NCBI RefSeq assembly: GCF_904846235.1 | Contig: NZ_CAJGZN010000002.1 | Span: 124,001-188,000 of the forward strand | DNA: 64,000 bases | Direction: 5' to 3' | Source: Psychrobacter immobilis | GTDB lineage: Bacteria > Pseudomonadota > Gammaproteobacteria > Pseudomonadales > Moraxellaceae | Shown here: piece after piece, positions 59,611 to 62,039 of the stretch | How the letters are laid out: each line of letters begins with the position of its first letter | How positions within the stretch are numbered: position 1 is the first letter of the stretch | Translations under genes and position numbers: made by a program | The notes under the pieces: model-generated | What the model saw: only the letters and a program-made list of their open reading frames with translations | Told to the model about the DNA's origin: nothing | Database searches by the model: none

Positions 59611-59646
59611 AAAAAGCCGCCCATAAACAGTATAGGCGGCTTTTTT
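59611..59646. terminator. Terminator T1 (AAAAAGCCGCC / GGCGGCTTTTTT)
   Basis: Perfect 11-bp stem with A and T runs. It serves the unknown coiled-coil gene and BLUF copy 1. Related hairpins recur downstream of BLUF copy 3 (61000), partially after copy 2, and at 61948. Confidence 0.92.
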
Positions 59647-59671: not shown

Positions 59672-60151
59672 TTAAGACATATTGGATTCGGTATCTTCAA
59701 AGATCGTTTTTAGGAAGCTTGTAATCTGAGTACTTTTCATTAGATAAGGATTAAAGTCAGCACCTGCTGAGAAACTTTTTAGGGTATATGCTTCGTCTTC
59801 TGCACTTGATGTTAAATATTTTATTAAAAACCCATCCCACCTACGTTCTTCTATTTCCTCAATCTCACTGTGGTGGGGTACTAGGTAAGAGTACTCACTG
59901 ATTAATTTTACTAGTATTTCATTGATAAGAGGTCTTGGACCTTCAATATTTTGAATAAAGTAATTGTCATTCACGACAAGCGCTGAGGTTACACCAATTT
60001 TTTCATTATTCCTTCGCCATTGCTCAAGCAGACGAGCCAACCCTATCCCATTATTACTGTCACTATTTTTGCCAATATACGTTAGGCTGAGAATGATATG
60101 CTCGCCATGTCTTTTTCTATTTTCTAAAGGTTGGCTGGTAGTGATACGCAT
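59672..60151 (-). CDS. BLUF-domain protein, copy 1 (flavin residues present)
   Basis: 159 residues with a BLUF domain at about 15-110 and a C-terminal helix pair (ADFNPYLMKSTQITSFLKTI), similar in layout to Acinetobacter BlsA. BLUF proteins bind FAD and sense blue light, and short ones act through partner proteins. The key residues appear to be conserved: Y25 (LTYIGK), N48-N49 (RRNNEKIGVTSAL) and Q67 (YFIQNIEG). The usual Trp/Met near the end of the domain reads GFLIKYL. An AAGG ribosome site lies before the ATG. It is the last of three tandem paralogues on the minus strand. Family is inferred by motif; light-sensing is not proven. Confidence 0.82.
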   Translation of the reverse strand: MRITTSQPLENRKRHGEHIILSLTYIGKNSDSNNGIGLARLLEQWRRNNEKIGVTSALVVNDNYFIQNIEGPRPLINEILVKLISEYSYLVPHHSEIEEIEERRWDGFLIKYLTSSAEDEAYTLKSFSAGADFNPYLMKSTQITSFLKTIFEDTESNMS

Positions 60152-60191
60152 AAGAAACCTTATTTATAAAAAATTATCTAAATCAAAAGAC

Positions 60192-60197
60192 ACTTTA
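60192..60197 (-). promoter_or_regulatory. Half-site of the BLUF palindrome upstream of copy 1
   Basis: ACTTTA occurs at the same relative place as the full palindromes of copies 2 and 3. The right half is replaced by ACGGCTTTTTT, a remnant of copy 2's terminator. Copies 1 and 2 lie only ~107 bp apart here. Confidence 0.4.
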
Positions 60198-60258
60198 TAG
60201 ACGGCTTTTTTACGCCAATTAAAATAGATGACTCTTATGATATGTAAATGCTACTCAT

Positions 60259-60738
60259 CTAAAACCTATCGGATTCAGTACCTTCAAATATCGCTGTCAG
60301 AAAATTTTCAATCTGAGTACTTTTCATTAGGTAAGGATTGAAGTCAAAACCTGCTGAGAAACTTTTTAAGGCATACTCCTCATCTTCGACACTTTCCGTC
60401 AGGTGTTTGGTTACGAATCCATCCCACCGAAGCGCTTCTATCTCTTCCACCTTGACAACATTAGGAACAATCTTGAAATGCTCATCAATTATCTTCGCTA
60501 GAGCAGCGTTGACCGCCGGTCTTGAGCCTTGAATGTTTTGAACAAAGTAACCGTCATTGATCACAAGTGCTGCAACTAGCCCACTTTCCTCAAAGTATCT
60601 TCGCCACTGTTCAAGAGCACGAGTCAACTCTATACCTGTTTTCATTTCGATGTTTTTACCGATATACGTTAGGCCAATCAGCAGATGCTCGCCATGTCTT
60701 TTCCTATTTTCTGACGTTTGATTGGTCGTTATATACAT
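60259..60738 (-). CDS. BLUF-like protein, copy 2 (asparagine pair lost)
   Basis: 159 residues aligning without gaps to copies 1 and 3. It keeps Y25 (LTYIGK) and Q67 (YFVQNIQG), but the Asn pair that contacts flavin in BLUF domains is Y48-F49 (WRRYFEESGLVAAL). The C-terminal FDFNPYLMKSTQIENFLTAI is shared. An open-frame start exists at 60750; I chose ATG 60738 by alignment with the other copies. It may bind a different flavin state, another ligand or none; this is inference. A full ACTTTA-N3-TAAAGT palindrome lies 42 bp upstream. Confidence 0.78.
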   Translation of the reverse strand: MYITTNQTSENRKRHGEHLLIGLTYIGKNIEMKTGIELTRALEQWRRYFEESGLVAALVINDGYFVQNIQGSRPAVNAALAKIIDEHFKIVPNVVKVEEIEALRWDGFVTKHLTESVEDEEYALKSFSAGFDFNPYLMKSTQIENFLTAIFEGTESDRF

Positions 60739-60779
60739 AAGAAAATCCATTTATATAATAGGTATATAAATTAATATAC

Positions 60780-60794
60780 ACTTTATCATAAAGT
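60780..60794. promoter_or_regulatory. Palindrome ACTTTA-N3-TAAAGT upstream of BLUF copy 2
   Basis: Perfect 6-bp arms with a TCA spacer, flanked by TATA. It is shared with copy 3 and half-preserved at copy 1. Likely operator or promoter core; the regulator is unknown. Confidence 0.6.
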
Positions 60795-60797
60795 ATA

Positions 60798-60999
60798 ATC
60801 AATAAAACTCTTGGGAATTGATCAGCTTCTTATCATCCATACCTTAAAATAACATGACAAAAACAGGTATCACTAAGGCATTTCTAGTAGTTAAATCCTG
60901 CAAGAGTCAGGTATGAATAGTCACCTATGAACATCCGCCAATATTCTGTCCAATTGCTAAGAAAACATCCTGTACCGATACTGCTAACTTGCCTTCAAC
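60798..60999. other. Gap between BLUF copies 2 and 3
   Basis: Part of a 372-bp noncoding gap (60739-61110) with the palindrome at one end and a terminator-like hairpin at 61000-61035 at the other. No gene was recognised between them. Confidence 0.4.
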
Positions 61000-61035
61000 A
61001 AAAAGCCGCCTATACAAACGTATGAACGGCTTTTC
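61000..61035 (-). terminator. Terminator T3 after BLUF copy 3
   Basis: AAAAGCCG / CGGCTTTT stem with an inner ATAC/GTAT pairing. It is a diverged relative of T1, placed 76 bp after copy 3. Confidence 0.75.
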
Positions 61036-61110
61036 TATTCTAGCTAGGGCAAGTCCTACTAACAACTCTAAGAGGCAAATATTTAAGAAATAAATGCTAT
61101 TCATTTAAAA

Positions 61111-61584
61111 TTAATTAGATTCAGCATTTTCAAAAACCGCCTTCAAGAAGCTTTCAATCTGAGAGCTTTTCATTAAATAAGGATTGTAGTCAGAGCCTGC
61201 TGAAAAGTTCTTTAGGGCATGCTCTTCATCTTCAACGCTTGAGGTTAGATGTTTAACTAAAAACCCTTTCCATTGACGCGTTTCGATTTCCTCTATATTC
61301 ACAATATTAGGGACAATAGTTGAATGCTCGTCAAGTATCTTTTCCAAGGCAGTATTGATAGCAGGTCTTGTCCCTTGGAAACTTTGAACGAAATAACCTT
61401 CGCTAATGACTAAAGCTGAAACGATATCGTTTTCTTCAAAATATCTGCGCCAGTACTCAAGTGCGCGAGTCAGCTCAATCCCCGAATCTAGATCGACATT
61501 TTTGGCGATATATGTCATGTGGATAAGAATATGTTCGCCATGCCTTTTTCTATCTTCTGAAGGTTGGCTTGCCGTTATGTTCAT
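61111..61584 (-). CDS. BLUF-like protein, copy 3 (asparagine pair lost)
   Basis: 157 residues, gap-free alignment with copies 1 and 2 through most of the domain. Y25 (MTYIAK) and Q67 (YFVQSFQG) are kept; the Asn pair is again Y48-F49 (WRRYFEENDIVSAL). Copies 2 and 3 therefore share the altered pocket and are more alike to each other than to copy 1. C-terminal helices are preserved (SDYNPYLMKSSQIESFLKAV). AAGG precedes the ATG, and a perfect extended palindrome lies 41 bp upstream. It is the first gene of the triplet in transcription order, with a terminator after it. Confidence 0.78.
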   Translation of the reverse strand: MNITASQPSEDRKRHGEHILIHMTYIAKNVDLDSGIELTRALEYWRRYFEENDIVSALVISEGYFVQSFQGTRPAINTALEKILDEHSTIVPNIVNIEEIETRQWKGFLVKHLTSSVEDEEHALKNFSAGSDYNPYLMKSSQIESFLKAVFENAESN

Positions 61585-61622: not shown

Positions 61623-61643
61623 TATACTTTAAGATAAAGTATA
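61623..61643. promoter_or_regulatory. Extended palindrome upstream of BLUF copy 3
   Basis: Perfect 9-bp arms TATACTTTA / TAAAGTATA with an AGA spacer. The core is identical to the site ahead of copy 2. Downstream DNA up to the ATG is nearly identical to that before copy 1, so promoter plus gene were duplicated together. Confidence 0.65.
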
Positions 61644-61947: not shown

Positions 61948-61994
61948 AAAAAGCCGTCTATGCTATGTATAAACAGTTTGGTATAGACAGCTTT
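61948..61994 (-). terminator. Diverged terminator T4
   Basis: AAGCCGTCTAT / ATAGACAGCTT stem with one mismatch and a large loop. It resembles T1 and T3 and lies 46 bp after the PEBP-like gene on the minus strand. The A run on the plus side gives T on the minus side. Confidence 0.6.
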
Positions 61995-62039
61995 GTTGTT
62001 GCATACTAATTGTTGTATATTGATTGAATAGCTAACGTA

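Follow-up and report, generated by a model that had tools for sequence, protein, structure and literature searches.

In the 3.2-Mb genome of Psychrobacter immobilis, three short open reading frames encoding BLUF proteins lie in tandem on the minus strand at positions 59672-61584 of the window, the 64,000-nucleotide stretch of DNA analysed here (G000:C2:124001-188000; Table 1). Identity to copy 1 is 61% for copy 2 and 58% for copy 3, and the shared part aligns without internal gaps, the N terminus of copy 2 being 4 residues longer; the first-pass annotation had described three gap-free paralogues in tandem on one strand, and the reading frames and the alignment bear this out. The alignment likewise upholds its account of the key residues: copy 1 keeps Tyr25, Asn48, Asn49, and Gln67, and copies 2 and 3 hold Tyr, Tyr-Phe, and Gln at the equivalent places (29, 52-53, and 71 in copy 2 numbering). 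Membership in the BLUF family, also claimed there, was put to a profile search, in which all three copies exceed the curated 25-bit cut-off of Pfam BLUF (PF04940) with 41.5, 26.0, and 31.7 bits for copies 1, 2, and 3, copy 2 by one bit only; a search of the copies against NCBIfam returned no family over its cut-off. Eight BLUF matches are present across the host genome; five are canonical and lie at other sites, a tandem pair on contig C12 among them.

Table 1. Features of the BLUF array and its upstream regions, in window coordinates
Feature	Position	Strand	Basis
Copy 1: PixD-like BLUF protein, Asn48-Asn49 form, 159 aa	59672..60151	-	ORF, Pfam, phmmer
Asn48-Asn49 codons of copy 1 (AAT AAT)	60005..60010	-	Sequence reading, codon table
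Copy 2: PixD-like BLUF protein, Tyr-Phe form, 163 aa	60259..60750	-	ORF, Pfam, AlphaFold2, Foldseek
Tyr52-Phe53 codons of copy 2, aligned with copy 1 Asn48-Asn49	60592..60597	-	Sequence reading, alignment
21-base palindrome TATACTTTATNNTAAAGTRTA, upstream of copy 2, between promoter-like hexamers	60777..60797	.	Pattern scan
Copy 3: PixD-like BLUF protein, Tyr-Phe form, 157 aa	61111..61584	-	ORF, Pfam, AlphaFold2, Foldseek, VIA-align
Tyr48-Phe49 codons of copy 3 (TAT TTT)	61438..61443	-	Sequence reading, codon table
21-base palindrome TATACTTTATNNTAAAGTRTA, upstream of copy 3	61623..61643	.	Pattern scan

The two asparagines differ in how widely they are conserved. Our survey drew BLUF domains from searches of genomes across the class and the phylum (90 loci from among the matches listed, comprising 30 and a further 60 of mostly weaker matches, 15 further loci, and five canonical domains of the host genome; identical rows were merged, from 117 to 110 distinct). 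The second position of the pair is Asn in 107 of 109 distinct other domains and the first in 33 of 109, the remainder carrying Arg, Phe, Lys, His, or other residues; these are domains that existing profiles recognise, and distant Asn-less domains elsewhere could be missed. Residue correspondences come from sequence alignments with solved chains that are gap-free at these places, and copy 1 Asn48-Asn49 aligns in this way with the Asn-Asn of Slr1694 (PixD). Chance or an alignment artefact as the source of the Tyr-Phe pair is ruled out by the absence of gaps across the site, both among the copies and between copy 1 and Slr1694. In OaPAC, whose Lys29, Arg63, and Asp67 we matched to positions 48, 82, and 86 by motif reading, the second-position Asn30 is reported to bond flavin C4=O and N3, the first-position Lys29 to touch the phosphate, and Arg63 to contact flavin C2=O (PMC11533990). 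PixD Asn32 and Gln50 are described as strictly conserved flavin contacts (PMC5899715). In our alignment, Phe32 of BlsA occupies the first position and an Asn the second, and the BlsA F32N variant is reported to have altered spectra and unchanged motility control (PMC6695109). The first-pass annotation had assigned the asparagine pair to the flavin pocket; as a conserved ligand this stands for the second residue and not for the first, which is variable and is Phe in the working photoreceptor BlsA. By the measure of conservation, only the second Asn is the conserved BLUF residue and presumptive ligand.

Substitution of this residue is part of a broader reconstruction of the pocket. Judged at the 17 columns that reach at least 80% conservation in the survey, copies 1, 2, and 3 keep 9, 5, and 6 positions, respectively, whereas the nearest paralogues, a canonical group from the same genus (37 rows: the 176-codon frame on G000 contig C12 and 36 others), keep 16, among them DxRH, Trp, Met, and the second Asn. 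None of the three copies has the YxS Ser, the DxRH motif, or the fifth-strand Trp and Met (in the 17-column comparison the profile match of copy 2 stops short of the Met place, which a separate alignment shows as Thr), and copies 2 and 3 additionally show Asn to Phe, Thr to Val, and EG-motif Glu to Gln replacements. Elsewhere, among distinct surveyed domains, the YxS Ser is found in 107/107, the DxRH His in 106/107, Trp and Met in 87/100 each, and the Glu in 108/108. Copy 1 had been presented as keeping what is expected of a blue-light FAD sensor; with so many of these residues gone, it is itself unusual and not a standard sensor. The losses run through the whole family: none of 98 intact members retains the YxS Ser, the Arg of DxRH, or the fifth-strand Trp and Met, and the DxRH His is left in 12. 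In the Phe-type clade, to which copies 2 and 3 belong, the substitutions are linked, with Asn to Phe, Glu to Gln, and Thr mostly to Val or Ala.

Other positions have been held. Tyr is kept in all 98 intact family members and Gln in 97, and within the Phe-type clade both are invariant (67/67 each). Lys82, at the place of OaPAC Arg63, is present in 62/62 members of the two main Phe-type groups and in 65/67 of the clade, the other two having Arg, and most members of this clade have Glu where OaPAC has Asp67. The joint retention of Tyr and Gln is only mildly unlikely by chance: the probability is 0.11 (6/17) and 0.07 (5/17) for single copies and 0.02 for the family's three best-kept positions, in tests chosen post hoc. 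A reversed pattern was encountered in two distant BLUF domains of the same phylum (L222 and L223; genome G883, contig C46), in which Asn is kept, Gln is replaced by Thr or Ser, and Tyr by Phe.

Structure prediction places copies 2 and 3 close to PixD. The AlphaFold2 model of copy 3, built with 17 family sequences, has a mean pLDDT of 74.2, the other four of five models scoring about 45; that of copy 2 has a pLDDT of 80.8, with all five models at about 80, and was helped toward the BLUF fold by the canonical BLUFs in its 61-sequence alignment. Both predicted folds match PixD best: the top Foldseek hits are Slr1694 entries 2hfn for copy 2 (TM 0.75/0.83) and 2hfo for copy 3 (TM 0.76/0.86), and VIA-align superimposes the copy 3 model on TePixD with Z 18.3 over 136 residues (rmsd 2.2). 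For this model, acylphosphatases come next after BLUFs, at Z about 12; such matches fit the shared ferredoxin-like core. For copy 1, the best solved relative by phmmer is Tll0078 (1x0p, E 1.2e-6), also a PixD. The copies thus resemble PixD (Slr1694 of Synechocystis; Tll0078/TePixD) in length (157-163 aa), in the BLUF fold followed by C-terminal helices in both models with no output domain, and in the retained equivalents of Tyr8 and Gln50, but they share only about 20% identity with it, lack the counterparts of Trp91, Met93, DxRH, and the YxS Ser, and in copies 2 and 3 replace Asn32 with Phe. The C-terminal part is more conserved than the core, with a mean column entropy of 0.73 for residues 127-147 versus 1.13 for residues 20-111, and includes the strongly conserved motif FSAGxDFNPYLM. 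BlsA of Acinetobacter, from the same bacterial family, is likewise a short stand-alone BLUF protein, and its structures score Z 15.7-16.0 against the copy 3 model; its first position is Phe, and unlike the Tyr-Phe copies it has Asn at the second position, and the place of its Trp is Phe in the array copies. BlsA is reported to require Y7, Q51, and W92 (PMC6695109).

Both models and the profile also match chain D9 of PDB 8glv, a light chain of Chlamydomonas axonemal inner-arm dynein f/I1, which is presumably MOT7. For the BLUF domain of MOT7, the published map is described as too coarse to reveal flavin (PMC10266980). The axonemal chain is a possible second structural BLUF case.

All 105 Psychrobacter genomes carry at least one BLUF match over the cut-off, and 75 of them contain hits to a profile built from the three copies (E 1e-4), many of these hits being canonical paralogues. 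Profile scores are 125-151 bits for the canonical group versus 181-316 bits within the array family. Counting a member as intact when its reading frame was open and matched 111 or more model columns, and with assemblies that are partly draft, we found 98 intact family members in 53 genomes (one copy in 22, two in 17, three in 14); two further genomes yielded nothing but broken family pieces, and G017, one of the two, has a score in keeping with the canonical group. The Phe-type clade comprises 67 of these genes (66 Phe, one Leu) in 50/105 genomes. No intact Asn-type copy was seen in 25/53 family-bearing genomes, including G048, which has a broken Asn-type copy, and G083, in which the locus stops at a contig end. 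In the remaining 28, Asn types accompany Phe-clade copies in 25 and Tyr-Leu copies in three, and none has the Asn type alone; these 28 include G042 (with an Asn-type open frame) and G059 (with an Asn-type copy split between contig ends). One member of each of the window's three ortholog groups is present in 12 genomes, split over two contigs in G058, and the copy 3 orthologue is the sole copy seen in many species.

The first-pass annotation had proposed searching Psychrobacter genomes for the array and for conserved Tyr-Phe; this search revealed family arrays, Tyr-Phe forms included, that recur at the same locus, and a conserved clade. Because the same genes recur at the same place in other genomes, the Tyr-Phe arrays are not a matter of chance. 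Every one of 74 loci, with many genomes represented twice, has parC, a HAD hydrolase gene, or both next to the BLUF genes; loci with only one of them run into the end of the stretch or contig close by, or were followed no further. Typically parC flanks the array on one side, and opposite it is the HAD hydrolase gene, frequently accompanied by a PEBP-like gene; these look like general locus neighbours, and no co-transcribed partner gene was seen among them. Outside the genus, searches of Moraxellaceae (348 genomes including Psychrobacter, E 1e-15) and of the order (390 genomes, E 1e-20) gave two hits (E 4e-24 and 3e-22) and one hit (E 6e-21), respectively, all weak in that canonical Psychrobacter BLUFs reach similar E-values. 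A scan with two short peptide patterns gave 51 named loci, all from Psychrobacter. The array represents a branch of short, PixD-type BLUF proteins that is restricted to Psychrobacter and has a rebuilt flavin pocket.

Phylogenetic trees, selection estimates, and site counts were made without 18 partial rows and one row of G093 contig C25. In a 110-row tree, the 67 Phe-type clade rows (66 Phe, one Leu) fall together with an SH-aLRT of 99, and in a more careful 59-row tree from which the trait columns had been removed, the clade is supported at 99/94. A Tyr-Leu group (G003, G025, and G104) falls inside a clade with Asn members (support 99/97), which implies two changes; a single common loss of Asn has a log-likelihood 19.5 lower and a p-AU of 0.071, so that one clade is not rejected. 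On these trees, the small Leu-type group probably lost Asn separately. This second Asn-less form, in which the EG-motif Glu is kept, was observed in three genomes, at L087:3831-4358, L088:3809-4315, and L089:3895-4416. Median Nei-Gojobori dN/dS values, from pairs that are not independent, are 0.145 for copy 3 orthologues (833 pairs), 0.122 for copy 2 orthologues (149 pairs), 0.186 for copy 1 orthologues (66 pairs), and 0.206 for other Asn forms (40 pairs).

The exact palindrome of Table 1 occurs in the 3.2-Mb genome only before copies 2 and 3; no other site lies within 2 mismatches of it, and two sites lie at 3. By eye, only half of the palindrome is left upstream of copy 1. In the orthologue groups of copies 2 and 3, the best palindrome averages 7.8 of 9 pairs versus 6.4-6.6 in shuffled sequences, among rows that are related; it does not rise above shuffles in Asn-type groups or in five deep Phe-clade rows. 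Promoter-like matches in the region are no more frequent than shuffles give. Inverted repeats of the type AAAAAGCCGCC...GGCGGCTTTTT lie between the genes at about 59612-59646, 61000-61034, and 61948-61999; they look terminator-like by eye and were not listed by the scan that gave the promoter-like matches. These repeats may make each copy its own transcription unit.

What might the Phe-type proteins do? In the standard relay, a light signal would pass from flavin C4=O/N3H to Asn and Gln, then to Met, and then to the C-terminal part, and the Phe-type proteins would lack this route. The M93A variant of PixD is reported to lose the light-induced conformational change while the red shift remains (PMC5899715); since the Phe-type proteins have neither the Asn nor the Met, a PixD-type relay is predicted not to work in them as it does in PixD. 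We tentatively posit, as the leading reading though by no means a secure one, that the Phe-type proteins are PixD-like subunits that work through protein contact and are blind, or only weakly sensitive, to light. Contact would be made through the strongly conserved C-terminal part, and the proteins would act both in the many species with no Asn-type copy and in those that have one. The PixD fold matches, the pocket losses, purifying selection, the nearly half of family-bearing genomes in which no intact Asn-type copy was seen, and C-terminal conservation all support this proposal. Against it, C-terminal conservation is a feature of the PixD fold too, and the search around the array gave no partner gene. 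The loss of one residue is not always decisive: BlsA works with Phe at the first position, and for Slr1694 W91A wild-type photochemistry and signalling are reported (PMC6695109). Moreover, Tyr, Gln, and Lys82 are kept and the Asp67 place is mostly Glu, a combination that looks like a pocket still holding a ligand.

Should that ligand be FAD, the Phe-type proteins might still respond to light with a changed photocycle, a reading that we consider possible but rather doubtful. Tyr and Gln would do the chemistry, the Phe beside the ring would shift colour, yield, or recovery, and the signal would leave by a Met-free route. The invariance of Tyr and Gln in the clade and of Lys82 in its two main groups, purifying selection, and a fold that is intact in the predicted structures of copies 2 and 3 are consistent with this scenario. 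A 2015 review also states that functional studies of the equivalent AppA Asn45 were absent (PMC4630285), so that, on the review's statement, the need for this residue was untested at that time. The same pocket, however, has a hydrophobic side chain at a position that is Asn in 107 of 109 other domains, and Glu, the YxS Ser, DxRH, Trp, and Met have been lost as well.

Alternatively, the pocket could now bind another small molecule, making these proteins ligand sensors derived from a light sensor. The linked replacements of Asn, Glu, and Thr, combined with the retention of Tyr, Gln, and Lys, would suit a repurposed site; yet no candidate ligand has emerged, and the array adjoins no enzyme or transporter gene except those that look like usual neighbours of the locus, leaving this option unlikely. 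Less likely still, and indeed highly improbable, is that copies 2 and 3 work obligately in hetero-oligomers with a light-sensing copy 1. PixD is reported to assemble as dimers and decamers (PMC5899715), and every one of the 28 genomes with an Asn-type copy also carries an Asn-less one, but copy 1 itself is short of many sensor residues, and the 25/53 genomes in which no intact Asn-type copy was seen rule out obligate pairing as a general role; the suggestion in the first-pass annotation that copies 2 and 3 serve as dimer partners for copy 1 fails in this general form. The Phe-type proteins may instead partner with canonical BLUF proteins encoded elsewhere in the genome. Finally, that copies 2 and 3 are decaying duplicates is hardly credible: a few broken copies, of both Asn and Phe type, exist in other genomes, but 98 family members are intact, and in the two main Phe-type groups dN/dS is well below 1 (0.12-0.15) and key residues are fixed across species, which vindicates the earlier judgement that these copies are altered and not decaying.

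Taken in order, we favour protein-contact subunits over an altered photocycle, and the latter over another ligand. In evolutionary terms, it is conceivable, if still uncertain, that the clade gave up flavin light sensing and was selected as a light-blind PixD-like assembly protein or as a sensor of another ligand, with Asn replaced by a hydrophobic residue perhaps twice. Psychrobacter BLUF proteins are already known as such, and a 2013 survey places that of Psychrobacter cryohalolentis outside the Acinetobacter group (PMC3554667); the BLUF family itself is known, and the Asn-less Psychrobacter clade, as delineated by sequence comparison, appears to be new. Our search of open-licence literature, covering titles and abstract beginnings, found no report of Asn-less or flavin-free BLUF proteins.

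The proteins of the array are conserved, selected, PixD-like gene products with a rebuilt pocket, and their Phe-type members are unlikely to run the standard relay. In dozens of species, a near-universal Asn at the flavin edge has been replaced naturally, at the same place and often beside a paralogue that keeps it. Copies 1, 2, and 3 thus constitute a natural test of what this Asn does and of whether Tyr and Gln suffice to bind and read a flavin, and the array may yield BLUF proteins with a light-independent job.
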